Shown one piece after another: positions 29,632-58,565 of a DNA stretch of 64,000 nt; the stretch's first letter is position 1; each line of letters starts with the position of its first letter. Both the position numbers and the translations under genes were made by a program. The DNA comes from Actinomycetota bacterium (GTDB lineage Bacteria > Actinomycetota > Geothermincolia > Geothermincolales > RBG-13-55-18): positions 1 through 64,000 of the forward strand of contig JACIXD010000009.1 of NCBI GenBank assembly GCA_014360645.1, read 5' to 3'. The notes beneath the pieces are model-generated. The model made no database searches. It was not told where the DNA came from and saw only the letters and a program-made list of their open reading frames with translations.

Positions 29632-29714
29632 CGGGATGCAAATGGTGACCGGGGATCAGGGGGATGGCCGTCTCCGTCCCACGACGGGTCAGCCAGCACA
29701 GAGGAGGTCCTAAC

Positions 29715-30569
29715 ATGGCCATGGCCTGGGAGGAAGCGGAGGCTCGGAGGGTCGGGGAAGCTTTCGACCGCCTGGTGGGGAAGGCGCCGCGACGCAACAT
29801 CCGTGACCTAAACCACCTGGATGAAAAAACCAGAGAGCGCGTCTACGCCCTGCTCATCCCCGGTCGCCTGTTCGAGATGTTTGCCATCGACCCTCAAACC
29901 TTCACCAACCGCCTGGGAGAGAGGGTGGTGAGCGTGAACGCTCCGCAGGGCGCCACCTTCGCGGTCATCGAGGTCAGGGAGCACCCCCATGACCAGGATG
30001 CCATCTTCTTCCTGGAGATCGAGGACACCGCCTTCTTCAAGATCGACATCAACTTCCTGGTCATCAACGACCCCCGCTCCCCGCGCTTCGACACCGACGT
30101 GGACACCGCGGGGCGTCGCACCAAGTTCGCCACCGTCAGGCGCAACATCCCGGAGGAGATAAGGGCCATGGAGGCGGGGTTGGCGCCGGGCCAGGTGCGG
30201 CGCGGCCTGCGCCTCTTCCGCCACTTCGCGCCCCTGGCCCTCGGGTTCATCGAAGCCATGGGGCAGGACATGGTCATCGCAGAGCCCCTGGCCTATAACA
30301 ACGCCATCATCTTCGAGAGCTACGGCTTCAACTACATCCGTGGACGCCGCAAGATGGAGGAGATAAACGCCGGCTTCCAGCCCGGAGGGGAGCTCTTCGA
30401 GAGACTGGACGGCAGCACCCCCTTCCGGCGTCCGGGGATGGAGAAAACGGTGCGCGGGCGCGCCTGGGCCATTCACGACGGCATCCTGGGCGAACCCTGG
30501 CGGGGTATCGAGATGTACCGCACCATGCAGCCCGCCGGCATCTGCACCTTTCCCGGCTGGCGCTACTGA
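29715..30569 (+). CDS. Conserved-looking protein of unknown function next to GMC oxidoreductase
   Basis: The 284-residue product was not recognised. The start at 29715 follows AGAGGAGG. It has no signal peptide or membrane helix. Its sequence is evenly mixed alpha/beta: LLIPGRLFEMFAIDPQTF, ATFAVIEVREHPHDQDAIFF, FFKIDINFLVINDPRSPRFD, FRHFAPLALGFIEAMGQDM and a C-terminal PAGICTFPGWRY. Codon use and GC content match the neighbours. It is 83 bases downstream of the GMC gene on the same strand and so probably belongs to that transcription unit. Confidence 0.65.
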   Translation: MAMAWEEAEARRVGEAFDRLVGKAPRRNIRDLNHLDEKTRERVYALLIPGRLFEMFAIDPQTFTNRLGERVVSVNAPQGATFAVIEVREHPHDQDAIFFLEIEDTAFFKIDINFLVINDPRSPRFDTDVDTAGRRTKFATVRRNIPEEIRAMEAGLAPGQVRRGLRLFRHFAPLALGFIEAMGQDMVIAEPLAYNNAIIFESYGFNYIRGRRKMEEINAGFQPGGELFERLDGSTPFRRPGMEKTVRGRAWAIHDGILGEPWRGIEMYRTMQPAGICTFPGWRY

Positions 30570-33238: not shown

Positions 33239-34999
33239 ATGAGCGAGGACCTGGAGAGGATAAAGGAGGCGCGCAAGGCCTGGGAGGAGGGGCCGCTGGC
33301 CAAGACCCTTAAGAAGTTCCCCTACCTCAACGCGGAGAGCGCCCGCTTCTATGGGCCCGACGACCTTGAGGGCTTCGACTTCCTGGAGAAGGTGGGCTTC
33401 CCCGGCACCTACCCCTACACCGCCGGGACCTTTCCCGTCGAGCCCATGGCCGGGCTGGCGAGGCTGGCCTCCATGGCCGGCAAGGGGGAGATACCCGGGG
33501 CTGGCGGCCAGACCCGCGCCGCCATCTACTCCGGCTACGGCACTCCCGAGGACACCCGCGACTATTACAGGGGCCTGCTGGAGCAGGGGGGAAGAGGCGG
33601 CCCCAACCTCGCCTTCGACCTCCCCACGCAGTGCGGGTACGACTCCGACGACCCCCTGGCGGAGGGCGAGGTGGGCAAGGTGGGGGTGTGCGTGGACACC
33701 CTGGCGGATCTCGAGATCATCTACGAGCCCTACCGCGGGGACCTCGACCTCGACAACATCGCCTCCAACTTCACCATCAACGCCCCCGCCAACATCATCA
33801 TCGCCATGTACGCCGCCTTGGCGGAGAAGCGCGGCATCCCCCTGGAAAAGCTGCGCGCCACGCCTCAGAACGACATCCTCAAGGAATACATCGCCCGCGG
33901 CACCTACATCTTCCCGCCCAAACACGCCCTGCGCATGTTCCGCGACAGCCTGGTGTTCCTCACCCGCAACATGCCCAACGTCAATATCACCTCCATAGGC
34001 GGATATCACATCCGGGAGGCGGGGGCCACCCGCGAGCAGGACCTGGCCTTCAGCATGGCCAACGCCATCGCCTATCTGCAGGTAGGCGTGGACGCAGGCT
34101 TGCACGTGGACGAGTTCGCCCCCCGCTTCACCTTCAATGCCTTCGGCGGGAGCATGGAGCTGCTCAAGGAGGTGGCCTTCCAGCGCGCGGCGCGCCGTAT
34201 GTACGCGCGCATCCTCAAGGAGAGGTTCGGGGCCAGGGACCCCCGCAGCATGCGCATACGCCAGGCCATCGGCGCGCACATCGGGCCCTCTTCCACCACC
34301 CTGCAGCGCCCCCTCAACAACCTCACCCGCGCAGTCATCGGCGCGGTGGCCAGCGTGCTCTCCGGCGGCCGTCCCCTCCCCTTCCCGCCCTACGACGAGC
34401 CCCTGGGGCTGGGCTGGAGCATGGAGGCCCTGCAGCTGGCCCAGGACGCGGGAAGGATCATCGCCTGTGAGGCGCGGCTGCTGGAATACACCGACCCCTT
34501 CGCCGGCTCCTACTGCATGGAGTCTCTCACCGACGACATCGAGAACGCCGCCTGGGAGGAACTGGAAAAGATCGAGAAGATGGGCGGGGCGGTGGCGGCC
34601 ATCGAGAACGGCTACATGCAGCGCGAGGTCTCGCGCAGCGCCTACGAGCGCCAGCGTGCCGTGGAGAGAGGAGAGCGCCTGGTGGTGGGGGTGAACTGCT
34701 TCACGGGAGAGCACGAGCTGGAGGTCACCACCAACCGCCTGGTGGCCAACCCCTACGACCCCGAGAAGCGAGAGTGGGCTGAGGAGAAGCAGAAGGCGCG
34801 CCTGGCGGAGATCAAGCGGCAGCGCGACGGCCGCGAGGTGGCCCGCCTGTTGAAGGAGCTGGAGTCTCTCGCACGAAAGGAAGAGGAGAACCTCCTGCCC
34901 CACCTGGTGGAATGCGTAAAGGCATACGTCACCGAGGGGGAGATCTGCGGGGTGCTGCGCCAGGTCTTCGGGGAATACAAGGCGGTCTCTCCCTTCTGA
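33239..34999 (+). CDS. B12-dependent acyl-CoA mutase, large (substrate-binding) subunit
   Basis: The 586-residue protein matches the N-terminal TIM-barrel part of methylmalonyl-CoA mutase: FDFLEKVGFPGTYPYTAG, NLAFDLPTQCGYDSDDPLAE, TINAPANIIIAMYAALAE, QNDILKEYIARGTYIFPP, and GYHIREAGAT containing His257, equivalent to the base-proximal His of the family. The usual substrate loop (TMYRGRxWTxRQYAGF) is replaced and lengthened: residues about 64-98 read differently and only the Y-S-G-Y-G-T end aligns. That suggests an unusual acyl-CoA, plausibly a branched alkylsuccinyl-CoA in the context of the fumarate-addition genes. The cobalamin-binding subunit is a separate gene at 37247. The start at 33239 follows GGGGGGAAG. 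Canonical methylmalonyl-CoA mutase activity is the alternative. Confidence 0.85.
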   Translation: MSEDLERIKEARKAWEEGPLAKTLKKFPYLNAESARFYGPDDLEGFDFLEKVGFPGTYPYTAGTFPVEPMAGLARLASMAGKGEIPGAGGQTRAAIYSGYGTPEDTRDYYRGLLEQGGRGGPNLAFDLPTQCGYDSDDPLAEGEVGKVGVCVDTLADLEIIYEPYRGDLDLDNIASNFTINAPANIIIAMYAALAEKRGIPLEKLRATPQNDILKEYIARGTYIFPPKHALRMFRDSLVFLTRNMPNVNITSIGGYHIREAGATREQDLAFSMANAIAYLQVGVDAGLHVDEFAPRFTFNAFGGSMELLKEVAFQRAARRMYARILKERFGARDPRSMRIRQAIGAHIGPSSTTLQRPLNNLTRAVIGAVASVLSGGRPLPFPPYDEPLGLGWSMEALQLAQDAGRIIACEARLLEYTDPFAGSYCMESLTDDIENAAWEELEKIEKMGGAVAAIENGYMQREVSRSAYERQRAVERGERLVVGVNCFTGEHELEVTTNRLVANPYDPEKREWAEEKQKARLAEIKRQRDGREVARLLKELESLARKEEENLLPHLVECVKAYVTEGEICGVLRQVFGEYKAVSPF

Positions 35000-35034: not shown

Positions 35035-37095
35035 ATGGCCGGTAGCCTCCGCGCCGGCGGGCGCCGGGAGCAGGAGGAGGGCTGCGTGTTCCGCTACCGC
35101 CTCTCGGAGGCGCCGCGGCGCGAGCCGCTGCACGCCGACCGCCTGGCGGAATTGATCCGGCAGCAGCTCTGCAACCTCCTGGACATCGCCGTGCCGCAGA
35201 AAAACGGGGAGGACGTCGCCGTGGACTCCTTCCGCTTCTTGGCGGAGAGCAAGCCGCGTGCGCTGTTTCCTCGGGAAGCGGCGGAGAATACCCGCCACGC
35301 GCGTGACGCTGCGGAGGAAGAGCCCGGGTCAGGTGCGTCACGCCGCGAGGTCCCGCGAGACGGTTCCCCGGAAACGGCATCCATCGTGGAGAAGTGCGAA
35401 GGCGGCGTCCGGGAAAAGACTGCCTTCGTGGAGGGGCGTGAAGGCGCCTCCCGAGGCGAGGACTCGCCAAACGGGCGCGGCGGGCGAGAGGCGCCGGGAA
35501 GACCCGCCTACCGCAGCCTCGCTAACGCCGCCCTCTACGAGCCACGCGTGGAGTTCATCGCCAGGCAGCTCGCCAGCCTTCTCTCCGTGGTGGAGCTGGA
35601 GTGGGAGGGAAAGACGGCGAAGGTGGACGGCTTCCGCCTCCGCGACCTCGACGACTGGACGGGACCGCACGCCTCGGCGACGGCCGACCTCTTCCAGCAT
35701 GCCGCCACGCGCTGTCAGTTCGACTGCGTGTTCTGCTACAACCGGGGCGGGCCCCCTTCTCTCGCGTCGGACGCAGCTGACGCAGAGGAGGAGTGGCGGG
35801 AGCTCTCGGACAGGCTCGCGCGTTACGAGCCCCGGTCGGGCACGGGCCTCTTCCCCACCTTCGGAGGTCCCCGCGAGGTGCTGGCCCACCCCCACGCCCT
35901 GCGGCTGCTGCGGGAGGTCCGCGAGCGCACCGACGAACCTATCCGGCTCTCTACCAACGGTGGGGCCCTGGACCGCAGGTGCATCGCCGCCCTGGCGGAG
36001 TTGCGCCCGCTCTTCCTGGACCTCTCGCTCCACAGCTCCTCCCCTTCCCGCCGCGCCATGCTCATGAGGGACCCCCATCCCGAGAAGGCGGTGGCGGCGC
36101 TTCCCGCGCTGTCGGAAGCGGGGATACCTTACGCGGTCACCATCGTGGCGTGGCCCCTCCCTTCCCTGGAGGAGATGCTGAGTGACCTGCGCGCCACGGT
36201 GCTCTACGCCGCGGCTTCGGGGGCGCGCATGGTGCAGGTCAACCTGCCGGGTTTCTCGCGCTTCTTCTCGCCCACCCCGCCCTTCGACACCGCGAAGGTG
36301 TGGCCGGAGATCGTGCGTGAGGTGGGGAAGTTGCGCGAACTTTCTGACTGCCCGGTCTTCCTCAGCCCCGCCATGTACGAGGAAAACCTTACCAGGCGGG
36401 ACAAGAACCGCGCCGAGGTCGTCGGGGTGGTGCGCGGCTCTCCCGCCGCGCGCGCGGGGCTGGCGGCGGGAGACCTGTTGACTGCGGTGAACGGCACGGG
36501 GGCGAGGAACAGGCCCCAGGCCAGGGACCTCCTCGCCCTGGTTCAGGCCGCGGACGCCGGGGAGTTCACGCTCACGGTGCGGCGCGGCGGCGGGGACATC
36601 GAGCTCACCGGCGACACCCGCGACTTCTCCTACCCCTACGACCCCCAGACGGCCGCGCACCTGGGGGCGGTGTTCATGGGATCAGGGTTCAGGGCGAGCC
36701 ATCTGGACGAGGTCCAGGCGGCCGTCCACGCGCGGGGGGCGCGGCGGCCGCTGCTGCTCACCTCGGCGCTGGTGAGGCCGACCCTGGAGCAGCTCCTCCG
36801 GGAGCGTCCCCTCTCGCTCCCCGGCGGATGCAAGCTCGCCCTGGGGGTGCCGGAGAACCGTTATTTCGGAGGCAACATCATCCTGGGCGACCTCCTGGTG
36901 GTGGACGATTTCGTGGCCTTCATCCGGGAGTACGCGGCGCGCGGCGGGGAGGGGCCGGACCTGGTCCTCATCCCCTCCTCTCCCTTCCGGCTCGGCGGCT
37001 GGGGGAGGGACCTCACCGGGAGGCCTTACCTCGATATCGAGAGGAGGACGGGGATAGCGGTGGAGCTCTTGCGCTGCGAGACGATATGGGAATGA
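35035..37095 (+). CDS. Radical SAM protein with PDZ and DUF512-like C-terminal domains
   Basis: The protein has about 686 residues. The radical SAM motif is CQFDCVFC (Cys227, 231, 234; C-x3-C-x2-C), followed by barrel segments such as PIRLSTNGGAL and LFLDLSLHSSSPSRRAML. Residues about 462-520 form a PDZ-like domain (VVGVVRGSPAARAGLAAGDL). The end carries ENRYFGGNIILGDLLVVDDF, as in DUF512 proteins. Before the SAM motif two related segments of about 45 residues (IRQQLCNLLDI ... VDSFRF and IARQLASLLSV ... VDGFRL) flank a charged, low-complexity linker of about 110 residues. It sits between the two mutase subunit genes, 35 bases after the first, so a role in mutase maturation or in the same pathway is likely. 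The exact reaction is unknown. Confidence 0.7.
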   Translation: MAGSLRAGGRREQEEGCVFRYRLSEAPRREPLHADRLAELIRQQLCNLLDIAVPQKNGEDVAVDSFRFLAESKPRALFPREAAENTRHARDAAEEEPGSGASRREVPRDGSPETASIVEKCEGGVREKTAFVEGREGASRGEDSPNGRGGREAPGRPAYRSLANAALYEPRVEFIARQLASLLSVVELEWEGKTAKVDGFRLRDLDDWTGPHASATADLFQHAATRCQFDCVFCYNRGGPPSLASDAADAEEEWRELSDRLARYEPRSGTGLFPTFGGPREVLAHPHALRLLREVRERTDEPIRLSTNGGALDRRCIAALAELRPLFLDLSLHSSSPSRRAMLMRDPHPEKAVAALPALSEAGIPYAVTIVAWPLPSLEEMLSDLRATVLYAAASGARMVQVNLPGFSRFFSPTPPFDTAKVWPEIVREVGKLRELSDCPVFLSPAMYEENLTRRDKNRAEVVGVVRGSPAARAGLAAGDLLTAVNGTGARNRPQARDLLALVQAADAGEFTLTVRRGGGDIELTGDTRDFSYPYDPQTAAHLGAVFMGSGFRASHLDEVQAAVHARGARRPLLLTSALVRPTLEQLLRERPLSLPGGCKLALGVPENRYFGGNIILGDLLVVDDFVAFIREYAARGGEGPDLVLIPSSPFRLGGWGRDLTGRPYLDIERRTGIAVELLRCETIWE

Positions 37096-37246
37096 GCGGC
37101 ATGCGGACGCGGCTCCCACGTTCCCGCGGCGGTCGCGTCGCAGGTGAGCCGACCGCTTTCCTGTGGACGGATATGGAAACGAGTCCCGCACGACCGCCAC
37201 TTCCCGAGGGGCGAGACGGGACAGCGGCCTAGGAGGGAGGATCTTC

Positions 37247-37672
37247 ATGGAGAGCAAGGAAAAGGCAAAGGTAAGGGTGCTCATCGCCAAGCCGGGGCTG
37301 GACGGCCACGACCAGGGGGCCAAGGTCATCGCCTACGGCCTCAAGGACGCGGGTTTCGAGGTCATCTACACGGGGCTCCGCCGCACCCCCGAGGACATCG
37401 CCAACGCCGCCCTGGACGAGGACGTGGACGTCATCGGCCTCTCCATCCTCTCCGGAGCGCACCTGAGCATCGTCAGGAGACTCATGTCCCTGCTGGAGGA
37501 GAAGGGGATCGGGGACAAGCTGGTGTTGGTGGGAGGGATCATCCCTCAGGAAGACATACCCAGGCTCAAGGAGATGGGGGTCGCGGAGGTCTTCGTCTCC
37601 GGTACCTATATCTCTCAGGTAGCCGACTTCATCCGGGATAAGCTTGGTCTGGCTGCCGAAGCCGCCGGTTAG
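37247..37672 (+). CDS. Acyl-CoA mutase small subunit, cobalamin-binding
   Basis: The 141-residue protein is a stand-alone B12-binding domain of the methylmalonyl-CoA mutase C-terminal type. It contains VLIAKPGLDGHDQGAKVIA with the D-x-H-x-x-G motif; His21 is the lower axial cobalt ligand. It continues with VIGLSILSGAH and VGGIIPQEDIPRLKEMGVAEVF. AGGAGGGAGG precedes the ATG at 37247. It completes the large subunit at 33239 to form a heteromeric adenosylcobalamin-dependent mutase, as in archaeal and other split mutases. No MeaB-type G-protein chaperone gene is nearby. Confidence 0.92.
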   Translation: MESKEKAKVRVLIAKPGLDGHDQGAKVIAYGLKDAGFEVIYTGLRRTPEDIANAALDEDVDVIGLSILSGAHLSIVRRLMSLLEEKGIGDKLVLVGGIIPQEDIPRLKEMGVAEVFVSGTYISQVADFIRDKLGLAAEAAG

Positions 37673-37776: not shown

Positions 37777-39138
37777 TCAGTCCCCGTAGGCGCGCACCAG
37801 CTCGTTGATGTCCTCCAGGCTCTCCAGCCCCTTGAGCATCTCCAGGGTCCTGGCGGCCACCCCGGGGCCGATGATGCTCCCCACGCATTCCAGATACTTG
37901 TCGTGTATCTGCGCCTCGCTCATGGGGTTCCCCGGCTCGCCCAGCGGCTTCTCCGCCTTCCCCACCGCCGTGCGCCCTCCCCGGAAGTGCACCGCCACCT
38001 CGGCGGCGAAGGGGCTGGTGATATCGCCTTCCAGGTCCTGCCAGTCAAAGCGGGAGATGGTCCGCACCACCGGCGCGGAGGTCACCACCTCGTCCCTGAA
38101 CTGCCCGACCCCCACCTTGCCCTCCAGGAGGGCGGCGGTGACGCAGAACTCGAGGCTGAACTTGCCCTCCAGGCCGGACTTGGGCTCGTGGTAGGTGAGC
38201 ACCGAGCGCAGCCACCCCGGTACCCTGCATTCCACCTTCTCGATCTCTTCCGCCTCGATGCCCCCCGTATCCAACGCTTCCTGACGGGCCATCAGGGCTG
38301 CGTCTATGGCGCCCTGGGGACCGCGGCAGCAGGGATAGGGCTTGTAGGAAAGCCCCGGCTCCAGGAGCTCGTAGGGCTCGCCGAGGGTGTCGAGCAGCTC
38401 CTGCGCCCTGTCGGGGTCGTCGGAGAAGGCGCGCGCGAACCCGTTCTCCCCGTAGAGCGCGTCGGGGTTGGCGGTGAAGCCCCGGCTCGCGAGCTGCGCG
38501 GCGATGATGCCGTTCATGGCCGCCATCCCGGCATGCAGGGGCTTGGTCATGGTCCCGAAGTTGGCACGGATGCCGTTGGACAGCGAGCAGGAGATACCCA
38601 GGGCATGGGTGGTCTGCTCCTCGTCCAGCCCCATGAGCCGGGCGCAGGAAGCCGCAGCTCCCAGGGCTCCCATGGTGCTGGTGCGGTGCCATCCCAGCAT
38701 GTAGGAATTGCCGCCGAGCGCCGCCCCCACCTTGGCCGCCACCTCCAGCCCCGCCACGTAGGCGGTGATGCAGTCCCTTCCCGGAGACGAGAGCAGCTCG
38801 CCGAGGGCGACGATGGCCGGCACCAAGGCCACGGAGGGATGCCCCATCATGCGGAAGCTCACGTCGTCATAGTCCAGGGCATGAGCTGCGGTGCCGTTGG
38901 CGAGCGCAGCCCAGGGCGCGGCGGTGCGCCTGAAGCCGTGGAAGACGGTGGCCTGCTCCTTGCCTCCCAGTGACTCCACCCACTCGGCGGTGATGCGGGA
39001 GCAGTCGTCCTCCAGTCCCGCCACCGTCACCCCCAGGCAGTCTATGATGGGAATCTTGGCCGCCTCCACCACCTGCGGTGAAAAGCCCTCGTAACGCAGG
39101 CCGCATACGAATTTCGCCACCTCCGCGAGCTCGTTCAT
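37777..39138 (-). CDS. MmgE/PrpD family protein
   Basis: The 453-residue protein has the features of the MmgE/PrpD (2-methylcitrate dehydratase-like) family: IDCLGVTVAGLEDD, WAALANGTAAHALDYDD, HPSVALVPAIVALGE, NFGTMTKPLHAGMAA and LSYKPYPCCRG. The last two hold the catalytic basic residues. Members dehydrate or isomerise tricarboxylic and related acids, and several act on substituted itaconate or citrate. GAGGGGGAAAG precedes the ATG. It is transcribed opposite to the mutase and acyl-CoA ligase genes, yet lies between them, so it may handle an alkyl-substituted succinate/citrate intermediate of propionyl-CoA disposal. The substrate is not determined. Confidence 0.88.
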   Translation of the reverse strand: MNELAEVAKFVCGLRYEGFSPQVVEAAKIPIIDCLGVTVAGLEDDCSRITAEWVESLGGKEQATVFHGFRRTAAPWAALANGTAAHALDYDDVSFRMMGHPSVALVPAIVALGELLSSPGRDCITAYVAGLEVAAKVGAALGGNSYMLGWHRTSTMGALGAAASCARLMGLDEEQTTHALGISCSLSNGIRANFGTMTKPLHAGMAAMNGIIAAQLASRGFTANPDALYGENGFARAFSDDPDRAQELLDTLGEPYELLEPGLSYKPYPCCRGPQGAIDAALMARQEALDTGGIEAEEIEKVECRVPGWLRSVLTYHEPKSGLEGKFSLEFCVTAALLEGKVGVGQFRDEVVTSAPVVRTISRFDWQDLEGDITSPFAAEVAVHFRGGRTAVGKAEKPLGEPGNPMSEAQIHDKYLECVGSIIGPGVAARTLEMLKGLESLEDINELVRAYGD

Positions 39139-40239
39139 CTTTCCCCCTCCTCATTCACTCATTCCCCCGTGGCCGTGCCGCACGGCGCGGAGCACCCGCG
39201 ATCGCGAGTACAGGCGGAGACGGCGGGCTGGGGGATGGTGCGGGTATGCTCCTGCCGCCGTCCACGGCGCCGCCGCGTTCTCGTCCTCGCCGCCGTTCAT
39301 GCCCGCCGGAGGCGCCGTCTTCAGAGATCGCCCGAAGCTAAGCCCCCCATGCCGACACCGGGCCGTTCCCCGCGCTCCCCGGGAAAACGCGCAACACGGC
39401 GGCGCCATGCGTCCGGCGTGGTGCGATAGGACTCCCCTGGATCTCCCGCTTCTCCGCCGCCGCCCGCCCCCGGGCCGCGGCGGCCTCGACAGCCGTTCCC
39501 GAACAAGCAAGATACTAGCAGAGCCGGAAGGGGGTGTAAAGGCTGGCCTTGCGCGCAGATATCCAGTATTGATGCGGTATTTCACAGGTATTGCCCCGAG
39601 CGCACATAATTTATATCTTTAAGATTGGTGTACGTCTTTACTTTACACTTGGTGAACGATATTGCATAATGCATCGCAAGGGCTTCGTGATGGTGACGGA
39701 AAGCGGCCGACCGCAAGGTCCGGTCCGCGATGCGAGAGAAGGGAAAAAGCGGCGCGACACGCCCAGGTCCACCGCTCCTTCCGGAAGAGCGCGCGTCCGG
39801 GCTGCGGAAGGAGGGGGGAGCGAGCGGCGGGGGGCACGGTCTGCCGGGAGCCGGTAACCGGGTCCCGGGTCTCGAAGGTTCCGGCGGCAAACAGGGGAGC
39901 AACCGGCCCCGGGCATGGCTAAGGGCCGCTGCGAGGCGGCGTCAACGGCCACCGGAATCCCCTGGCTTCCCATCCGGCGGAACTCCCGGTGAGCGGGAGG
40001 ACGGGAAAGGTTCCCGACAAAGGCGGGCCGGCCGCGGGCACAGGAGCAGCCCCGGCCAGGGGCCCTCGTCCCGCTCCGGGGTGACGGGATGTGCCACCCC
40101 GATCCCCCGACACCATCAACAGCCAGATCATGGAAGGCGAATACGGCGACGGCCGGTTCCCGAGGCGCGAGGAGCGGGAAATGAGTCCCGGCCCTCTCGC
40201 GTCCCGGCAGCCGGCCCCGAAAAAAGGGGGTGTATCGAG
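39139..40239. other. Long intergenic region with an AT-rich promoter patch
   Basis: About 1.1 kb between the divergent MmgE/PrpD and acyl-CoA ligase genes. Bases 39590-39680 are markedly AT-rich and hold a near-consensus promoter (39642-39670). The remaining GC-rich parts have long open frames on both strands, none with a family match or ribosome site, which is expected at this GC content. If the promoter serves the ligase gene, the leader is about 560 bases. Confidence 0.5.
39642..39670 (+). promoter_or_regulatory. Sigma-70-type promoter upstream of the acyl-CoA ligase
   Basis: TTTACA (39642-39647), exactly 17 bases, CATAAT (39665-39670), in the most AT-rich part of the spacer. A GTGAACG heptamer (39652-39658) lies inside the spacer, the position expected for a repressor site. 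Confidence 0.6.
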
Positions 40240-41772
40240 ATGAACGTCGGCAACTGGGCGACGAAACGGGCGCTGTTCCCCCTCACCGGGGACAAGACGG
40301 CCTTCATCTACGGGGAGCGCAGCCTCACCTACAAAGAGTTCAACCGCCGGGTAAACCAGGTGGCCGACGGCCTGCTGGCGGCGGGGCTGAAGCGGCAGGA
40401 GCGGGTGGCGGGGATGTTCTTCAACTGCCCCGAGTTCATGGAGATCTACTTCGCGTGCGCCAAGCTGGGGCTCATCTTCATCCCCCTCAACTTCCGCCTC
40501 ACCCCTGCCGAGCTCAAGGACATCTTCGAGGACACCGATACCCGCGCCCTCTTCTTCCACTCCGAGTTCACGGGGACCATGGGTGAGCTGCTCGATCTCT
40601 ACAAGAGCCCCATGCCGGTGGTGGCCGCGGTGGGCGACGCGGTGCCCGACTTCGCCCAGCCATACGAGGAATGGCTGCAGGGCCGCAGCGAGGACGAGCC
40701 CTTCGTCCCCGAGCCTCCCGACATGGAGGACCCGCAGCTCATCATGTACACCTCAGGCACCACCGGGAGGGCCAAGGGAGCCGTGTTGCCCCATCGCAAG
40801 ACCTTCTGGAACACCTTCAACGACGCCCTGGAGCTCCTCTTCGACCTGAGCGCCGTCTCCTTGGTGTCCATCCCCCTCTTCCACTCCGGGGGGCTCAACA
40901 TCATCACCATGCCCACTTTCTACACCGGCGGCACCATCATCCTGCAGAAGTTCTGGAATCCCGAGGAGGCGCTGCGCATCATCTCCGAGCACCGGGTCAC
41001 CCATTTCGGCGCCGTGCCCACCATGCTGCAGATGATGCTGGAAGTGCCCGACTTCGACCGCTACGACCTCCGCTCCCTCAAGGGAGTGGGCATCGGCGGC
41101 GCGCCGGCGTCCAGGGAACTTCTGGACCGCATCGTGGAGAAGATGAAAGTGCCCCTCCTCATCCAGGTATTCGGGTGCACCGAGACCTCCATCGTGCTCT
41201 CCTGTTCCAACATGGAGAAGGTGGGCAGCGCGGGCATCCCCATGTTCCACTCCGAGGTCAAGGTGCTCAAGGAGGACGGGAGCGAGGTGATGCCGGGCTC
41301 GGGCGAGGTGGGGGAGATCTGCTCCCGGGGCCCGTACGTCATGCTGGGATACTGGAACATGCCCGAGGAGACGGCGGAGGCCATGAAGGACGGCTGGTTC
41401 CACTACGGCGACCTGGCCACGGTGGACGAGGACGGCTACATCTACGTGGTGGACCGCAAGAAGGACATGATCATCAGCGGCGGCGAGAACATCTACCCCG
41501 CCGAGGTGGAGAAGGTGCTCATGGAGCACCCCAAGATAAAGGACGTGGCGGTCATCGGCATGGCGGACGAGAAGTGGGGCGAGGTGGGCCACGCCCTGGT
41601 CCTGCCGGAGAACCCCGAGGACCCCGTGACCCTGCAGGAGATAGAGTCCTTCTGCGAGGGAAAGCTGGCGCGCTACAAGATCCCCAAGAAGGTCACCCTG
41701 GTGGAGGCCATACCTAGGACGCTCACGGGGAAGATACTCAAGAAGGAGCTGCGCAAGCTGTACGCGGTTTGA
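40240..41772 (+). CDS. Acyl-CoA synthetase / CoA ligase (AMP-forming)
   Basis: The 510-residue enzyme belongs to the ANL superfamily. Motifs in order: IMYTSGTTGRAKGAVLPHRK (P-loop), QVFGCTETSIVLSC, GWFHYGDLATVDEDGYIYVV, DRKKDMIISGGENIYPAEVE and, at the end, PRTLTGKILKKELRK with the catalytic lysine. It activates a carboxylic acid as acyl-AMP and transfers it to CoA. In alkane degradation by fumarate addition an enzyme of this kind (AssK-like) activates the alkylsuccinate. Its position between the mutase and the glycyl-radical synthase fits that role, though fatty-acid activation is equally possible from sequence alone. The start at 40240 follows AAAAAAGGGGG. Confidence 0.85.
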   Translation: MNVGNWATKRALFPLTGDKTAFIYGERSLTYKEFNRRVNQVADGLLAAGLKRQERVAGMFFNCPEFMEIYFACAKLGLIFIPLNFRLTPAELKDIFEDTDTRALFFHSEFTGTMGELLDLYKSPMPVVAAVGDAVPDFAQPYEEWLQGRSEDEPFVPEPPDMEDPQLIMYTSGTTGRAKGAVLPHRKTFWNTFNDALELLFDLSAVSLVSIPLFHSGGLNIITMPTFYTGGTIILQKFWNPEEALRIISEHRVTHFGAVPTMLQMMLEVPDFDRYDLRSLKGVGIGGAPASRELLDRIVEKMKVPLLIQVFGCTETSIVLSCSNMEKVGSAGIPMFHSEVKVLKEDGSEVMPGSGEVGEICSRGPYVMLGYWNMPEETAEAMKDGWFHYGDLATVDEDGYIYVVDRKKDMIISGGENIYPAEVEKVLMEHPKIKDVAVIGMADEKWGEVGHALVLPENPEDPVTLQEIESFCEGKLARYKIPKKVTLVEAIPRTLTGKILKKELRKLYAV

Positions 41773-42044
41773 GCCCGGCCTATCCTCGCCCGCCAGCGGC
41801 GCGGACCAGCGGACCGTGCGGGAGGCCGCGGGAGCCTGAGCGTCCGCCCGGCAGGACATGGCAGGGCATGGAAAAAAGGGACAGGAGTAGTTTTAGAATA
41901 TCTAACGGGCGCTGCCGGCTCGACGGAGGCCGAGCGACCATCGGGACGGCCGTTGACGCCGCGTGCCCGGCGGAGAGACGATGAAGGGGTCATGTACGGG
42001 CGGTCGGCTTGACGGATCGAAGGTTCACGGGCAAGGAGGGCGGC

Positions 42045-42845
42045 ATGAACGAGGAAGCGGAGCTCCTGGTCGAGCGGAAGGGAGAGCTGGCGGTGCTCAC
42101 CATCAACCGCCCTCAACGCCGCAACGCCCTCTCCTCCACCCTGCTGGTCTCGCTGGCCGGCGCGCTGGAGGAACTCGCGGGCGAGGGAGAGGTGCGCTGT
42201 GCCATCCTGCGGGGCGCGGGCGACAGGGCTTTCTCCGCGGGCATGGACCTCTCGGCCTTGCCGGAGGGCATCCCGGAGGACGTGCAGCGACAGATCGAGA
42301 GCAAGGGGCCGCTGCAGTTCGGCCTCGACGCCATCGAGGACTGCCCCTTCCCGGTCATCGCCATGATCCGGGGATACTGCGTGGGCGCGGGATGCGAGAC
42401 GAGCATGGCCTGCGACCTGCGGGTGGGGGCGGAGGGATGCCGCATGGGCATGCCCCCCGCGAAACTGGGCATCGTCTATCCTCCCGAGGGCCTGCACCGG
42501 TTCATCCGCAACCTCGGCATGCCCGTCACCAGGCGGGTCTTCTTCACCGCCCGGCTCTTCGAGGGACCGGAGGCCCTGGCCATGGGGATGCTGGACTACC
42601 TGGTGCCGGAGGAAGAGCTGGAGGGTTTCACGGAGGGGCTGGCGCGGGAGATCGCCGCCAACGCCCCCCTCTCGGTGTCCGGACACAAGCGGGTGCTGCG
42701 CATCATGGACAGGCGGGCCGTCCTCTCCGAGGAGGAGAGAAACGAGGTCAACGCGATCATGGGCCGCGCCCTGGCGAGCGAGGACGCGCGCGAGGGGCTC
42801 GCCGCCTTCCGCGAGAAGCGCGACCCCGTTTTCAGGGGTAAGTAG
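42045..42845 (+). CDS. Enoyl-CoA hydratase/isomerase family protein
   Basis: The 266-residue crotonase-family protein has LTINRPQRRNALSSTL, the oxyanion segment DRAFSAGMDLSAL, the second segment RGYCVGAGCETSMACDLRVG, then GMPPAKLGIVYPPEGLHRFI and FFTARLFEGPEALAMGMLDYLV. AAGGAGGGCGGC precedes the ATG at 42045. It is placed after the acyl-CoA ligase and before the glycyl-radical synthase on the same strand. It most likely serves beta-oxidation of the rearranged acyl-CoA. Since the family also includes decarboxylases such as methylmalonyl-CoA decarboxylase, a decarboxylating role on the mutase product should be kept in mind. Confidence 0.85.
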   Translation: MNEEAELLVERKGELAVLTINRPQRRNALSSTLLVSLAGALEELAGEGEVRCAILRGAGDRAFSAGMDLSALPEGIPEDVQRQIESKGPLQFGLDAIEDCPFPVIAMIRGYCVGAGCETSMACDLRVGAEGCRMGMPPAKLGIVYPPEGLHRFIRNLGMPVTRRVFFTARLFEGPEALAMGMLDYLVPEEELEGFTEGLAREIAANAPLSVSGHKRVLRIMDRRAVLSEEERNEVNAIMGRALASEDAREGLAAFREKRDPVFRGK

Positions 42846-42964: not shown

Positions 42965-43479
42965 AAGATTCAACATATCCGGCAATCATACAGGCATTAC
43001 ATAGCAATACAAAGACCAGGTTACTATGTAGATAGTGAAAAAAGTAAAGTCTGGAAGGCAGATAAGCACCAACACCTGAAGAACGAACGCGATCCGCAAG
43101 CCTCGCATCCTCCTCGCAGCCGGGCTCGTACCAGGGAAGACCGCAAGGACCGCGACACACTCCCGGAAGGACCAGACTTTTCACATATCTGCCGTGCCGG
43201 CAGGGCATCCCTGCCCGCATGCCACCGCAAGGTACGGGGCGGCGGGCGGTAAAGAAGCCGGGCGCGGCGGCCGGATCGAGTGCCGGCAAACATGGGTGGT
43301 GAGAAGAGGTGACCGTTCGTAGCCGGGATCGCGCGGAGCTTCCGCCGGCCGGAGGGAAGAGAGTAAAGGGGGTTGGTCGCGAGGGGGATGTCGTTCAGAT
43401 GCTTCTGGTCACCGAGTCGTGGTGTAACTGGAGACAAGATCCCGGAGACTGCGGAACAAGTACGAGAAGGGGGTAGGTG
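42965..43479 (+). other. Long 5-prime leader of the glycyl-radical synthase operon
   Basis: If the promoter at 42936-42964 is used, the transcript has a leader of about 500 bases. AAAGTCTGG (43046-43054) can pair with CCAGACTTT (43172-43180), and GGCAGATA (43057-43064) with TATCTGCC (43186-43193). The two pairings cross, so they would be a pseudoknot or mutually exclusive. No known riboswitch was recognised. A minus-strand frame here has no support as a gene. Confidence 0.35.
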
Positions 43480-45969
43480 ATGTCAGCGGTAGAGACGAGG
43501 ACCATCGAGGAGATCGAGAAGAGCGGGCAATGGTGGTGGTGGGCCGAGCACAAGCGTTCCAAGAGGCTCGACTACCTGCGCAAGGCGGTGTGGAAGAAGG
43601 GGGCCAAGGGCTCGGGCTACAACCCCGGGGTGAAGGTGGACCTGGAGAGGGCCGTTCTCTTCACCGAGGCCTTCAAGGCCAACGAGGCGGACAGCCTGCG
43701 CATGCGCTACGCCAAGGCCCTGGCCAACGTATTCGACAACATTACCATCTTCATCCAGGACAACGCCCAGATCATGGGTTACCTGGGGTCACGCCCTCAC
43801 ACCATAGTGTGGCACCCGGAGATCCTCTTCCTGCTCAACGAGGACCTCTACAACGACCGCACGGTGATCCCGGAGCCTGAGGCCGAGAACCTGGCCCTTA
43901 TCCGGGAGCTATGCGACTACTGGAATCCCATCTGCACCGGGGCCAAGGTCTTCAACCTGGTGCCGCCGGAGGAGATCGTCAAGCTCCTCACCGGGGTCAT
44001 CGGCTGGGGGCTCCCCATCTCCCGCATCGGGTACGCCACCAAGCAGTGGGACTACATGTTCAGGCTCGGACTGGAGGGCATCCTGGCCGAGATCGACGCC
44101 AGGATAGCCGAGGCCGAGGAGCACATATACAAAAAGGTGCCCGACCCGGACGAGCTCCCCTACTACGAGAAGCTGGACGTCTGGAAGTCCATGAAGGTGG
44201 TGCTGGAGGCGGTGATCCGCTGGGCACGCCGCTACAGCCGCCTGGCGAGGATCGTCGCCGAGAACTTCGAGACCGACCCCAAGCGCAAGGAGGAGCTGCT
44301 GCGCATAGCCGAGGTGTGCGAGAAGGTGCCCGCGCGCCCGCCAGAGCACCTGCACGAGTCGCTGCAGTTCGACCATTTCATCCAGATCGCCTGCCGCTAC
44401 GAGGCCTGCGAGGGCGCCTGGCCAGCCCGACCCGACTACTGGCACGGCCCCTTCTACGAGAAGGACGTGAACCAGGATAAGATCCTCACCCGCGAGGAGG
44501 CCTTGGACCTCACGGGCGAATTCCTCATCCGCTGTTACGAGGTGGGGTGGTTCTGGCTCATGCTGGCGCGCGACACCCTGCAGGGGATCACCGGCACCTG
44601 GGTATGGACCATCGGGGGCGTGAACGAGGACGGCACCGACGCCTGCAACGACATGACTGACTGCCTGCTGGAGGCGGCCCGTCTGGTAAGGGTTGCCAAC
44701 CCCACCTTCGCCTTCCGCTACCACCCCAACGTCAGGATGTCCACCCTGCGGCAGGTCTTCGAGTGCATCCGCCAGGGACTGGGTTATCCGTCCATGCGCA
44801 ACGACCCCGTGCTCATCACCAACGCCATGCACTGGCACAAGCACCCGCTGCGGGAGGCGCGCCGCTGGGTGCACCAGGCCTGCATGTCGCCCTGCCCGGA
44901 CACCAAGCTGGGTTGCCAGCCCTTCCGCATGGCCAACGCCACCATCATCGCCGCCAAAGCCGTCGAGTACGCGCTCTTCGACGGCTATGACAACACCCTC
45001 CAGATGCAGTTCGGCCCCCATACCGGGGACGCCTCCAAGTTCGAGTCCTTCGAGGAGCTCTATCAGGCCTGGTACACCCAGATCAAGTGGATGATGGACA
45101 CCTTGGTAAAACTTACCAACGGCGGCCGTTACATGGCGCAGTACCTCGACCCCAGGCCGCTGCTCTCCGGGCTCTACGAGCGCTGCGTGGAGCTGGGCGT
45201 GGACTCCTCGCACCCCAGCGAGCGCGGCAACTCCTGGATCACCTTCTTCGCCTGGATGGAGACCGGAGACAGCCTGGCTGCGGTCAAGAAGCTGGTCTTC
45301 GACGAGAAGAAATACACCATGGCCCAGCTCGTCGAGGCCCTGCGCGCCAACTGGGAGGGCTACGAGGAGATGCGCATGGACTTCGTGCGCGCGCCCAAGT
45401 GGGGTAACGACGACGACTACGTGGACCAGATCCACGTGCGCTGCCACCAGGACGTGGCCAAACACTCTTGGGAGATCAAGGATCCCACCGGCAACCCCTG
45501 GCCTCCCCTGCCGGAGAACATCGCCGCCTACGTGACCAACGCCACCAAGGTGTGGGCGCTGCCCAACGGGCGCCGGCTGGGGGACACCCTCTACGACGGC
45601 GGCTGCTCTCCAGGGGCGGGACTGGACAAGAAGGGGCCCACGGCGGTGCTGCGCTCGGTGGCCAAGATCGACCACATCGGGGACGTGCGCGCCACCCTGC
45701 TCAACCAGAGGCTGTCGCCCCAGCAGCTCGCGGGCGAGAAGGGGTTCCAGATCTGGTACTCCTACATCAAGACCTGGGCGGAGCTGGGCATCGACCACGT
45801 GCAGTTCAACATGGTGGACAACGAGACCCTCAAGGCGGCCCAGAAGGAGCCGGAGAAGTACCCCGAGCTCATCGTGCGCATAGCCGGTTACAGCGCCCAC
45901 TTCGTGGACCTGAACAAGAAGACCCAGGATACCATCATCGCCCGCAGCGTGCAGGAGCTGGGCACCTGA
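43480..45969 (+). CDS. assA: X-succinate synthase alpha subunit (alkylsuccinate/benzylsuccinate synthase family glycyl radical enzyme)
   Basis: The 829-residue protein is a glycyl radical enzyme of the fumarate-adding family. The active-site cysteine is Cys468 in WVHQACMSPCPDTK. The radical glycine is Gly803 in IVRIAGYSAHFVDLNKKTQD, 27 residues from the C terminus. Other family stretches are LTGEFLIRCYEVGWFWLMLA, GPHTGDASKFESFEELY, SPGAGLDKKGPTAVLRSVAK and GIDHVQFNMVDNETL. These distinguish it from pyruvate formate-lyase and diol dehydratases, and to my reading resemble alkylsuccinate synthase (AssA/MasD) more than benzylsuccinate synthase. It would add a hydrocarbon C-H across fumarate. GAAGGGGG precedes the ATG at 43480. 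Small subunits and activase follow. The substrate (n-alkane, alkylbenzene or cresol) is inferred only. Confidence 0.88.
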   Translation: MSAVETRTIEEIEKSGQWWWWAEHKRSKRLDYLRKAVWKKGAKGSGYNPGVKVDLERAVLFTEAFKANEADSLRMRYAKALANVFDNITIFIQDNAQIMGYLGSRPHTIVWHPEILFLLNEDLYNDRTVIPEPEAENLALIRELCDYWNPICTGAKVFNLVPPEEIVKLLTGVIGWGLPISRIGYATKQWDYMFRLGLEGILAEIDARIAEAEEHIYKKVPDPDELPYYEKLDVWKSMKVVLEAVIRWARRYSRLARIVAENFETDPKRKEELLRIAEVCEKVPARPPEHLHESLQFDHFIQIACRYEACEGAWPARPDYWHGPFYEKDVNQDKILTREEALDLTGEFLIRCYEVGWFWLMLARDTLQGITGTWVWTIGGVNEDGTDACNDMTDCLLEAARLVRVANPTFAFRYHPNVRMSTLRQVFECIRQGLGYPSMRNDPVLITNAMHWHKHPLREARRWVHQACMSPCPDTKLGCQPFRMANATIIAAKAVEYALFDGYDNTLQMQFGPHTGDASKFESFEELYQAWYTQIKWMMDTLVKLTNGGRYMAQYLDPRPLLSGLYERCVELGVDSSHPSERGNSWITFFAWMETGDSLAAVKKLVFDEKKYTMAQLVEALRANWEGYEEMRMDFVRAPKWGNDDDYVDQIHVRCHQDVAKHSWEIKDPTGNPWPPLPENIAAYVTNATKVWALPNGRRLGDTLYDGGCSPGAGLDKKGPTAVLRSVAKIDHIGDVRATLLNQRLSPQQLAGEKGFQIWYSYIKTWAELGIDHVQFNMVDNETLKAAQKEPEKYPELIVRIAGYSAHFVDLNKKTQDTIIARSVQELGT

Positions 45970-46941: not shown

Positions 46942-47895
46942 ATGGGAGCTGAGGGTATAGGACCTGAAGCCTTGGTCACCAACATCCAGCGCTATTCCAT
47001 CAACGACGGTCCGGGCATCCGCACCACCGTCTTCCTCAAGGGTTGCCGTCTGAACTGCGCCTGGTGCCATAACCCGGAGTGCATCAACTTCGGCCCCGAG
47101 ATCTACTGGAAGCAGTCGCTGTGCACGCAGTGCGGGAGGTGCTTCTCCGTCTGCGAGAGAGGAGCTGTGCAGCCTCCCATCTACCTGGAAGCCGAGGGCG
47201 AGAACGCTCACTATCACAAGATCGACCACTCGCGCTGCGACCTCTGCATGGCCTGCGTCGAGGCCTGCATCTACGGCGCCCTTACCAGGGTCGGGGAGCC
47301 AAGGAGCGTGGAGGAGGTCCTGGAAGAGGTGGAGAGGGACATGCCCTTTTACCTCAATTCCGGGGGTGGGATGACGGTGACCGGCGGCGAGCCCACCGCC
47401 TTCCCGGAATTCACCCTGGCGCTGCTGAAGGGGGCCAAGGAGCGTGGCATACACACTTGCCTCGACACCAGCGGGTTCTGCGAATGGGAGGTGCTGGACG
47501 CGCTGCGTCCGTACGTGGACATCTTCCTCTACGACATCAAGTGCCTGAGCAGCAAGCAGCACCTCCTGCGCACGGGGGTGAGCAACTCCCCCATCCTCGC
47601 TAACCTCACTCGGCTGGCGGAGGCGGGCGAGAGCATCATCGTGCGCATCCCGGTCATACCGGGATTCAACGATTCCGTGGAACACATGGAGAAGGTGGCG
47701 GAGTTCCTGGCGGGGCTGGGGCCGTCCCTGATCCGAGTGGACCTGCTCCCCTTCCACAACTGGTGCCAGGACAAGTACCGCTGGCTGGGCCGCGAATGGC
47801 CTTATCGGGACGTCGAGAGCCTCGCCGTGAGCGAGGTGGACGACCTCTTGGACGTCATGGAAGAAAAAGGCATTGTCGTCACCATCGGAGGATGA
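46942..47895 (+). CDS. assD: Glycyl-radical enzyme activating enzyme (radical SAM)
   Basis: The 317-residue activase has the radical SAM motif FLKGCRLNCAWCHNPE (C-x3-C-x2-C) and an inserted ferredoxin-like part with two cysteine clusters, CTQCGRCFSVC and CDLCMACVEAC. It continues with MTVTGGEPTAFPEF (SAM-binding GGE) and the typical IDIFLYDIKCLSSKQH and RIPVIPGFNDS segments. This is the architecture of activases for benzylsuccinate and alkylsuccinate synthases and glycerol dehydratase, with two extra [4Fe-4S] clusters, rather than the short pyruvate formate-lyase activase. It uses S-adenosylmethionine to generate the radical on Gly803 of the alpha subunit. GGGGAGG precedes the ATG. It stands in the synthase operon between the small proteins. 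Confidence 0.92.
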   Translation: MGAEGIGPEALVTNIQRYSINDGPGIRTTVFLKGCRLNCAWCHNPECINFGPEIYWKQSLCTQCGRCFSVCERGAVQPPIYLEAEGENAHYHKIDHSRCDLCMACVEACIYGALTRVGEPRSVEEVLEEVERDMPFYLNSGGGMTVTGGEPTAFPEFTLALLKGAKERGIHTCLDTSGFCEWEVLDALRPYVDIFLYDIKCLSSKQHLLRTGVSNSPILANLTRLAEAGESIIVRIPVIPGFNDSVEHMEKVAEFLAGLGPSLIRVDLLPFHNWCQDKYRWLGREWPYRDVESLAVSEVDDLLDVMEEKGIVVTIGG

Positions 47896-48324: not shown

Positions 48325-48340
48325 AACGGAGGTGGTGTGG

Positions 48341-48688
48341 ATGGTGATCGTGTGCGACCGCTGCGGCTACGAGGGGGAGGGTGAGGAGTTCCGCCTCATC
48401 GGGAACGTGATGTGCTGCGGCCCCCTCATCTTCCGCGAGTGCCCCGGCTGCGGCAACCCCGTCATCTGCGACCGCCAGGAGATGCGCGAGGAGGTGGAGA
48501 ACGCGGCGCGCGACATCTCGCGCAGGATAGAGGCGGCGATACACTGCGGGGACACGGCGCAGGCGCGGGAGCTGCTGAAGGACCTCTCCTTCCTCAACCA
48601 GTGCCTCAACCTCGACGCCATCAACGATTACGTGCGGGAGAAGAAGCGCGAGGTCAACCGCCTGGAGAGGGCCGCGTCCTCCCTCTGA
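48341..48688 (+). CDS. Zinc-ribbon-like protein 3 with helical extension
   Basis: The 115-residue protein starts at ATG 48341, eight bases after GGAGG. Its N-terminal 45 residues, MVIVCDRCGYEGEGEEFRLI and FRECPGCGNPVICD, repeat the two C-x2-C plan of the small proteins at 46351 and 46582, with an extra CC (MCCG) between them. The remainder is a helical segment (EVENAARDISRRIEAAI, ELLKDLSFLNQCLNLDAI, REVNRLERAA), probably a coiled coil. It is the last gene on this strand before the convergent biotin ligase. Relationship to the two operon proteins suggests that it belongs to the synthase system, although a hairpin and a solo inverted-repeat copy separate it from the gamma-like subunit. Confidence 0.7.
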   Translation: MVIVCDRCGYEGEGEEFRLIGNVMCCGPLIFRECPGCGNPVICDRQEMREEVENAARDISRRIEAAIHCGDTAQARELLKDLSFLNQCLNLDAINDYVREKKREVNRLERAASSL

Positions 48689-53679: not shown

Positions 53680-54582
53680 GTGGATTCCAGCAGCAGGGCA
53701 GATTACCTGCTAATCGCGGGCGCGGCGGTACTATGGGGATCGGTGGGGGTGTTCCTGCGCTGGGTGGATCTTCCAGGCAGGGAGTATTTCGTGGTCTTCA
53801 TGCGCTCCGTCATCAGCCTCTGCTTCCTCACCGCGGTGATCCTGGCGAGCGGGAAGCGGGAGCAGCTCCATCCCGGCAGGCATCCCCTCCTCCTCCTCGC
53901 CAGCGGCGCCCTCCTCACCTTCCACTGGGTGATCTTCCTGAAGGCGCTGAACAACCTGTCCATCGGCGACGCGGAGTTCATCACCTACCTGGCCCCCGTG
54001 TTCGTGGCCATCCTGGCCCCCCTGCTGTTGAGGGAAAGGCTGGAGGCCACCACCGTGCTGGCCCTGGCCCTCGCCGTGGGGGGGATGTTCCTCGTCGCCC
54101 TCACGGGCCAGGAGGAAGGCGCCGCCCTCAGCGGCCCCGGCATCGCCTACGCCCTCACCGCGGCGGCGAGCTACGCCTTCCTCCTCATCATCCTGAAGAA
54201 GCTGCGCCGGGACACCCCCTCTCTCACCATCACCTTCTACCAAACGGGGGTGAACGCCCTGCTCCTCCTGCCCTTCTGCGCCTTCCGGGATTTCCAGGTC
54301 ACCGCGGGCGGCTGGGTCTCCCTCATGGTGCTGGGGACGGTGCACACGGCGTTCGCCGGGCTGGTCTACGTGCACGCGGTCAAGAGGGTGAAGGCACAGC
54401 ACGTGGGGATCATCGCCTATCTCGAGCCTCTGAGCGCGGTGCTCTTCGGGCTCGCCTTCCTGGGTGAACGGCCGGGGTGGCAGGACCTGGCGGGGGGCGC
54501 GCTGATCATCGCCGCCGGCGCACTGGTCATGCACCGCGCCTGGTCCGGTAACGGCCCCGCCCCCGAGGGCCCTCAGGCATAG
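53680..54582 (+). CDS. EamA/DMT-family transporter
   Basis: The 300-residue integral membrane protein has ten predicted hydrophobic helices in two EamA repeats: YLLIAGAAVLWGSVGVFLRW at the start, FITYLAPVFVAILAPLLLRERL ending the first, IAYALTAAASYAFLLIILKK starting the second, and HVGIIAYLEPLSAVLFGLAFLGERP near the end. The family exports metabolites and amino acids. The start is GTG 53680 with AAGGAG eight bases upstream. Its last ten bases overlap the end of the convergent gene at 54573. The substrate cannot be inferred. Confidence 0.85.
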   Translation: MDSSSRADYLLIAGAAVLWGSVGVFLRWVDLPGREYFVVFMRSVISLCFLTAVILASGKREQLHPGRHPLLLLASGALLTFHWVIFLKALNNLSIGDAEFITYLAPVFVAILAPLLLRERLEATTVLALALAVGGMFLVALTGQEEGAALSGPGIAYALTAAASYAFLLIILKKLRRDTPSLTITFYQTGVNALLLLPFCAFRDFQVTAGGWVSLMVLGTVHTAFAGLVYVHAVKRVKAQHVGIIAYLEPLSAVLFGLAFLGERPGWQDLAGGALIIAAGALVMHRAWSGNGPAPEGPQA

Positions 54583-55700: not shown

Positions 55701-55779
55701 GCTCTCCTCCCTATCCCTTGCCTCAAACTCCCCTCATGGTTCCCCCGGCCTGCGGAGCCCGGGGTGAGGAGCGGCGGCG

Positions 55780-58486: not shown

Positions 58487-58565
58487 GCTCTCCTCCCTAT
58501 CCCTTGCCTCAAACTCCCCTCATGGTTCCCCCGGCCTGCGGAGCCCGGGGTGAGGAGCGGCGGCG

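Follow-up and report, generated by a model that had tools for sequence, protein, structure and literature searches.

Why does a radical SAM gene lie between the genes for the two subunits of a mutase? This is the question raised by the window, which is the whole stretch of 64,000 nucleotides that was analysed. A sequence-only reading of this DNA offered two guesses: a maturation factor for the mutase, or an unrecognised catalytic step.

Literature offers little guidance here. Titles and abstract openings on DUF512 proteins, cobalamin-dependent radical SAM enzymes and alkane mutases, mostly from non-subscription papers, contain no link between a DUF512-type radical SAM protein and a mutase. In the excerpts available, a 2024 structure paper counts about 6000 DUF512 sequences, with substrates yet to be identified (PMC11659888), and a 2025 review of cobalamin-dependent radical SAM enzymes calls the DUF512 reactions an open question (PMC13331322). 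Within the accessible text of the cited papers, Mmp10 is the sole DUF512/Mmp10 family member with a known reaction (PMC8828468, PMC11659888, PMC13331322). The locus described here gives one branch of the DUF512 proteins a likely and directly testable client.

The mutase genes and the surrounding cluster

The genes in question, and those of the wider cluster that are kept in related genomes, are as follows.

33239 to 34999, + strand: MUT-L, mutase large subunit (TIGR00641, 482.7 bits; MM_CoA_mutase, 459 bits)
35035 to 37095, + strand: radical SAM protein, ORF of 686 aa, ATG at 35035 and TGA at 37093-37095 (Pfam, Foldseek)
37247 to 37672, + strand: MUT-S, mutase small B12-binding subunit (TIGR00640, 170 bits)
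37777 to 39138, - strand: MmgE/PrpD family protein (family match, kept in related clusters)
39730 to 41772, + strand: acyl-CoA ligase ORF, start probably later than 39730 (homology across related clusters)
42009 to 42845, + strand: enoyl-CoA hydratase-like protein (homology across clusters)
43477 to 45969, + strand: MasD-type glycyl radical enzyme, (1-methylalkyl)succinate synthase catalytic subunit (match to PDB 9o8u)
46942 to 47895, + strand: glycyl radical enzyme activase (kept beside MasD in related clusters)

ORF coordinates and subunit profile matches agree with the earlier statement that a 686-residue radical SAM protein is sandwiched by two mutase subunit genes. The spacing of 35 bases after the first of these is also right, with the MUT-L stop at 34999 and the next ATG at 35035. 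MUT-L has 586 amino acids from the Met at 33239, but its ORF opens at 33137, and residue numbers below follow this 620-aa ORF. The MUT-S ORF opens at 37163, where the ATG at 37247 is the likely start. The two proteins match the N- and C-terminal families of methylmalonyl-CoA mutase, respectively (Pfam, NCBIfam). The earlier identification of two mutase subunits stands, and can be refined to a split methylmalonyl-CoA-mutase-type enzyme within a MasD cluster.

The glycyl radical enzyme scores 1117.6 bits with MasD (PDB 9o8u) versus 565.5 with benzylsuccinate synthase. Because it matches MasD, we infer from sequence that 28105-48700 is a cluster for anaerobic alkane use by fumarate addition. It belongs to an Actinomycetota lineage close to Candidatus Solincola, which among the loci found is the nearest relative with a name. 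The components by which a (1-methylalkyl)succinate synthase cluster is recognised are all present: a MasD-type enzyme, an activase, a split mutase and a CoA ligase.

Similar clusters are found in Desulfobacterota. In the part of the source available, that of Desulfoglaeba alkanexedens has MasD/AssA, a split mutase and PrpD, and also a transport-system gene (PMC7180275), which is presumably MeaB. Unlike in the window, the Desulfobacterota mutase subunits are adjacent, with no radical SAM-PDZ gene between them in the stretches that contain both.

Other parts of the window deserve a brief mention. Near the MasD activase, the small ORF at 48332-48688 (118 aa) contains Cys pairs and may encode a small subunit of the synthase; its homologues lie beside MasD in Desulfobacterota clusters. 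At 29664-30569 there is a 301-aa protein with no Pfam/NCBIfam match that many related clusters conserve next to a GMC oxidoreductase. The neighbouring gene pairs at 54573-57012 and 57356-59798 have identical start sequences and lengths of 375/410 aa and 376/410 aa; these are either a tandem duplication or an assembly artefact.

Domains and cofactor site of the radical SAM protein

Along the protein, the domains are arranged in this order.

35089 to 35250, + strand: repeat unit 1, about residues 19-72 (profiles, models)
35260 to 35514, + strand: charged unconserved linker, about residues 76-160 (alignment; predicted disordered)
35530 to 35664, + strand: repeat unit 2, about residues 166-210 (profiles)
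35707 to 36174, + strand: radical SAM domain, residues 225-380, with the CX3CX2C motif C227, C231, C234 (Pfam)
36418 to 36585, + strand: PDZ domain, residues 462-517, between the radical SAM and B12-binding domains (PDZ_6, 1.6e-11)
36622 to 37092, + strand: predicted C-terminal DUF512-like cobalamin-binding domain, residues 530-686 (Foldseek, VIA-align, profile)

Pfam bears out the radical SAM, PDZ-like and DUF512-like architecture that had been read from the letters, with DUF512 below threshold here and above it in three homologues. The radical SAM domain scores 57.8 bits against a PF04055 cut-off of 29.5, which places it in the radical SAM superfamily, and its three cysteines are invariant over 29 aligned rows. 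The DUF512 match (PF04459) spans residues 552-652 and misses the cut-off of 25, with 14.1 bits for the whole protein and 18.2 for the domain alone; the homologues that exceed it are L042 (25.8), L044 (29.7) and L045 (27.0). Because of this score, the window's protein is called a relative of Pfam DUF512 and not a formal member. A PDZ domain between the radical SAM and B12 domains also occurs in L045, a distant Clostridia protein.

The highly charged linker noted earlier is present, although at about 90 residues instead of about 110. It is unconserved, and nearly gone in L019 and L043. In the predicted structure, residues 71-170 have a pLDDT below 50.

Prediction of the protein on its own, as had been proposed, yields a class-2 B12-dependent radical SAM fold (mean pLDDT 71). 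In a Foldseek search of the PDB, the nine best matches are all chains of pfDUF512 (1.7e-10), csDUF512 (1.1e-8) and Mmp10 (best 5.0e-8). Over residues 213..686, VIA-align gives Z 17.4-17.8 for Mmp10 and pfDUF512 (305-316 aligned residues) and Z 15.7 for csDUF512 (319 aligned residues). The RiPP maturase SkfB reaches an equal Z (17.9), but with just 211 residues aligned. When a profile of the C-terminal domain is compared with 177,635 PDB sequences, pfDUF512 and csDUF512 are the top two, weakly (E 0.1 and 0.26).

The residues around the cofactor can be compared one by one with those that excerpts of the structure paper describe for this class (PMC11659888). A Leu lies under the cobalt there: L366 in csDUF512, L286 in pfDUF512 and L322 in Mmp10. 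In the window's protein, L620 is invariant over 29 rows and aligns with csDUF512 L366 in a weak HMMER alignment (E 0.26); its match to the pfDUF512 Leu presupposes a one-residue numbering offset. An aromatic residue after the third Cys sits between cluster and cobalamin (Y23, F95, Y47), and Y235 follows C234 in 14/14 alignment rows, with Phe in L070. A Thr hydrogen-bonds the cobalamin base (T323, T252, T291). T576 follows the expected strand, yet the same weak alignment places it one residue away from csDUF512 T323.

Judged by predicted structure and by the CX3CX2C motif, the aromatic residue and L620, the protein is a member of the class-2 (Mmp10/DUF512) cobalamin-dependent radical SAM family. 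Cobalamin binding by DUF512 was demonstrated in 2024, and the excerpts report four DUF512 proteins that turn cobalamin into methylcobalamin with SAM and produce 5'-deoxyadenosine (PMC11659888). B12 binding by the window's protein seems to be expected from this family membership.

The nearest known proteins differ in layout. csDUF512 (Clostridium sporogenes, PDB 9CG1) likewise combines radical SAM, PDZ and a DUF512 cobalamin domain in a single protein, and shares the CX3CX2C motif, an aromatic residue that follows the third Cys, and a Leu below the cobalt to which L620 aligns. Its order is PDZ, radical SAM, B12, whereas the window's PDZ sits between the other two, and it has no N-terminal repeat units. 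The DDD motif of csDUF512 is absent from the aligned region after the cysteines in the window's protein. pfDUF512 (Pyrococcus furiosus, PDB 9CG2) is the best Foldseek match, and its NEFFGGNI...LL...D aligns with NRYFGGNI...LL...D, but it has 358 residues and neither PDZ nor repeat units. Mmp10 (PDB 7QBS), the arginine C-methylase of methyl-coenzyme M reductase, shares the radical SAM domain and a C-terminal four-stranded B12 domain (Z 17.4 over 316 residues), again without PDZ or repeat units. It has an iron loop with four Cys (PMC8828468, excerpt). The domain arrangement of the window's protein is different from that of the crystallised PDZ-bearing relative, and the partner is conserved.

Linkage to one type of mutase

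Family members were defined by E<=1e-40, which gives 34: 11 in the window's order, L043, L042, L044, L045, G424, G429, and 17 more in the SM23_61 phylum. Matches to the radical SAM domain only (G218, G341, G392) are not counted. The gene is present in 18 of 395 genomes of the SM23_61 phylum, SM23_61 included, and in Actinosynnema only among 298 genomes of its order.

The radical SAM gene adjoins a mutase subunit in 23 of the 34 members (11/11 in the window's order, L043, G424, and 10/17 of the SM23_61 phylum). In L201 the mutase is about 7.6 kb away. Seven members have no mutase in view, six of which are on contigs of at most 6.3 kb, and SM23_61 on one of 8.6 kb. The gene order thus recurs outside this contig, in answer to the search that the sequence-only reading had called for. 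Widespread homologues without mutase genes, named there as a refuting case, did not turn up: 3/34 are in genomes without this mutase type, these being Actinosynnema (best match 38%), G429 (43%) and the genome of L045, which has no mutase match at E<=1e-50.

Of 59 relatives of the window's genome, 11 have the mutase (E<=1e-150), and exactly these 11 have the radical SAM gene. MasD is found in 10 of the 59, nine of which also have the radical SAM gene. G010 and G011 have the gene and no MasD match; both are draft assemblies, with roughly 210 and 310 contigs. Conversely, G017 has a MasD that is 87% identical and an otherwise matching cluster, with another mutase (44%) and no radical SAM gene. At L133:14664-16805, a different mutase pair replaces the usual mutase and radical SAM gene in this genome, a natural swap. 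In the class of L043, MasD occurs in 29 of 389 genomes, and 27 of these 29 lack the radical SAM gene. SM23_61 has the radical SAM protein and linked-type mutase pieces (65-66%), but only a 33% glycyl radical enzyme. Across phyla, the radical SAM gene tracks one mutase type, and not MasD.

This distribution speaks against the earlier guess of an unrecognised catalytic step in alkane breakdown, given the 27 MasD genomes without the gene and SM23_61 without a MasD-like enzyme. It bears in the same way on modification of some other cluster protein, of which MasD would be an example. The operon context would suit such a client, but the same 27 genomes, G017 with MasD and no radical SAM gene, and SM23_61 with the reverse make it highly improbable.

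Could the gene simply be trapped beside the mutase, unrelated to it and co-inherited? Many linked loci are closely related, and the radical SAM protein diverges fast, with 50-67% identity where MUT-L has 81-97% (10 related genomes). Such inertia is nevertheless improbable. The linkage is kept in two gene orders (L-rSAM-S and rSAM-S-L) and in more than one phylum, the cysteines and B12-site residues are invariant, and in the radical SAM tree, from which the fragments L212-L215 were left out, the mutase-linked proteins fall into a single group (99/99) that excludes the three from genomes lacking such a mutase. At L203:5462-9120 and L204:11580-15076, two tandem R127-type MUT-L genes lie beside one radical SAM gene and one small subunit.

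The linked mutases can also be told apart by their own residues. A comparison of 23 full-length linked with 13 unlinked mutases finds nine columns that are near-invariant in the former (at least 22/23) and absent in the latter (0/13): R127, Y134, Y144, I208, A403, W427, P539, R545 and E574. Position 127 is Arg in 23/23 linked and Gly in 13/13 unlinked enzymes, and S, Q or T in 8/8 other mutases.

33515 to 33517, + strand: codon of Arg127 in the 620-aa numbering (Arg93 from the Met at 33239), candidate target residue

Arg127 is four residues before Y131. Since the matched stretch of 1REQ begins at Y131, this residue corresponds to Tyr89 of the Propionibacterium enzyme, with one residue allowed for numbering. 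We take Tyr89 of methylmalonyl-CoA mutase to be the catalytic tyrosine.

R127-type mutases were surveyed in the 59 relatives and seven further genomes. In G424, the R127-type mutase adjoins the radical SAM gene, and a second related mutase has Gly at 127 and no such gene in the stretch examined. One of the SM23_61 mutase pieces agrees with the linked type at R127, Y134, Y144 and W427, but not over the whole set of signature positions.

In a tree of 26 mutases, the linked ones are on one side of a branch (95/84). A tree of 44 does not fix the order of the two linked clades and the unlinked clade, so that the radical SAM gene and the residue may equally well have been lost in the unlinked clade or gained twice. 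L133 sits on a long branch, and its placement is unsure. With the tree not fully settled, shared ancestry accounts for part of the residue pattern. The MUT-L fragment L121 and the wrong-frame L074 ORF were excluded from all mutase trees, and the fragments of L201, L206, L208 and SM23_61 from the larger one.

These residues may have another meaning. The radical SAM protein could be a pathway enzyme that alters, for example by methylation, the small acyl-CoA or acid used by the mutase, in which case the two would share a metabolite without direct contact and the peculiar residues would bind substrate. Linked and unlinked mutases do differ around the active-site tyrosine. Where no glycyl radical enzyme is in view, the clusters include enoyl-CoA hydratases, nitronate-monooxygenase-like proteins, PrpD and ligases, and because of these other enzymes the mutase substrates may differ. 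However, in the window's order the gene is in a MasD cluster whose other steps match those of clusters without it, G017 has a cluster that matches in all else but lacks it, and a PDZ domain and peptide-like partner ORFs suit a protein client better. A pathway enzyme is therefore unlikely. Epimerisation before the mutase step has been proposed for alkane degradation (PMC3653055, excerpt), and a radical SAM epimerase is conceivable, but it would leave the B12 domain unexplained.

Proposed maturation of the mutase and the repeat units

Because both genes travel together across bacteria, the radical SAM protein probably finishes or tunes the mutase. The preferred reading, to which we give roughly even chances, builds on the computed fold, cofactor-site residues, domain order and conserved linkage to one mutase type. 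It holds that the protein is a class-2 (Mmp10/DUF512-type) enzyme dedicated to maturing the mutase that surrounds it. The [4Fe-4S] cluster bound by C227, C231 and C234 would cleave SAM to a 5'-deoxyadenosyl radical, while the C-terminal domain would hold methylcobalamin base-off above L620. A MUT-L residue near the active site would then be C-methylated, Arg127 being the best candidate, with the PDZ domain and the N-terminal repeat units presumably holding the client.

Protein maturation is favoured because of the fold and the protein-modifying relative Mmp10, the PDZ domain and the mutase linkage. According to the excerpts seen, Mmp10 C-methylates arginine R285 of methyl-coenzyme M reductase (PMC8828468), and MgmA, another B12-dependent radical SAM enzyme, is reported to methylate a glutamine in that archaeal protein (PMC11796369), which also supports this reading. 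The clients differ: that of Mmp10 is an archaeal nickel enzyme, and the candidate here is a B12 mutase. Two more distant relatives outside mutase loci adjoin small peptide-like ORFs, which we count for maturation. Of the two original guesses, the maturation factor is the one favoured by mutase linkage, two gene orders and the class-2 fold, with methylation as the supposed reaction.

Several observations pull the other way. In the class of L043, the MasD clusters that lack the radical SAM gene run a comparable mutase, so the pathway can in general do without any such modification. The fast divergence of the protein is also not what one would expect if its client were a fixed protein. Both points count against an indispensable role. 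The sub-threshold DUF512 score is a further point against the preferred reading. It is doubtful that the mutase bears a C-methylated active-site Arg127, installed by a second B12 enzyme from the same operon. Eight further columns show the same pattern as R127, and the linked mutases are close relatives, so this residue may be substrate-binding; the Mmp10 peptide (EMLPARRARGPNE) is unlike the R127 region.

The protein might instead care for the cofactor, either by handing cobalamin to the mutase or by making or restoring AdoCbl from SAM and cob(II)alamin. Both would be B12 proteins, with binding by the radical SAM protein predicted. Excerpts of the structure paper report that some of the cobalamin in DUF512 proteins was AdoCbl, and that 5'-deoxyadenosine lies over the cobalt in pfDUF512 (PMC11659888). 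The AdoCbl of csDUF512 appeared after co-expression with B12-uptake genes (PMC11659888), so it need not be a product. Comparable mutases manage without the radical SAM protein, and the residues peculiar to linked mutases are left unexplained. The genome of the window, G000, encodes the mutase GTPase MeaB elsewhere, and MeaB coexists with the radical SAM gene in L043 and L210. These points make cofactor care distinctly unlikely. The more specific idea of a MeaB replacement, suggested by a cluster without MeaB, was dropped: MeaB is encoded elsewhere in G000 (E 1.5e-96) and in most relatives.

If the mutase does carry a C-methylated Arg127 installed by its neighbour, a DUF512/PDZ radical SAM enzyme gains a known client, and in anaerobic hydrocarbon metabolism the two proteins would be for bacteria what Mmp10 and methyl-coenzyme M reductase are for archaea. 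Maturation of the mutase would further bring a layer of protein modification into anaerobic alkane degradation and among B12 mutases. Handles on client choice are provided by the domain order, which is unlike the crystallised one, and by stand-alone copies of the repeat beside distant relatives.

An S/T-x-hydrophobic C-terminus is the pattern of a PDZ ligand. Linked MUT-L tails mostly end this way (SPF, SFL, SIL, TFV, SIF). Docking of the PDZ domain on this tail was nonetheless rejected, since unlinked tails also finish with a hydrophobic residue, some having S or T at -2 (TKL, SKL), and an unrelated mutase ends in SIF, which makes the tail unspecific.

The internal repeat at the N-terminus, spotted by eye before, is confirmed by profiles: that of unit 1 recovers unit 2 in the same protein (i-E 5.5e-6), and the profiles of the two units align with 98.7% probability (E 1.6e-16). 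Unit 1 is modelled as a strand, a helix and two strands. For the repeats predicted on their own (mean pLDDT 75), Foldseek is empty at E<=0.001 and VIA-align gives no Z>=2 among 114 chains, which does not prove a new fold. PDB sequences hold no convincing match either.

Mutase-linked proteins have two units fused in. Stand-alone units also exist: ORFs of 78 and 61 aa beside or near the radical SAM gene in Actinosynnema (L044), and one of 81 aa directly 3' of it in G429 (L070). The thought that the repeat is a RiPP-like peptide substrate of the window's protein was set aside, as it is fused and conserved in mutase-linked proteins. For that reason it is kept as a client- or partner-binding unit, and the units may have been fused once the enzyme acquired a fixed client.

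The Actinosynnema locus (L044:9236-16254) is of interest in itself. It holds a radical SAM-PDZ protein, the two small repeat-unit ORFs, a second radical SAM protein, an FGE-like (sulfatase-modifying-factor-like) protein, a transporter and peptidases, and is a possible uncharacterised peptide natural-product cluster.
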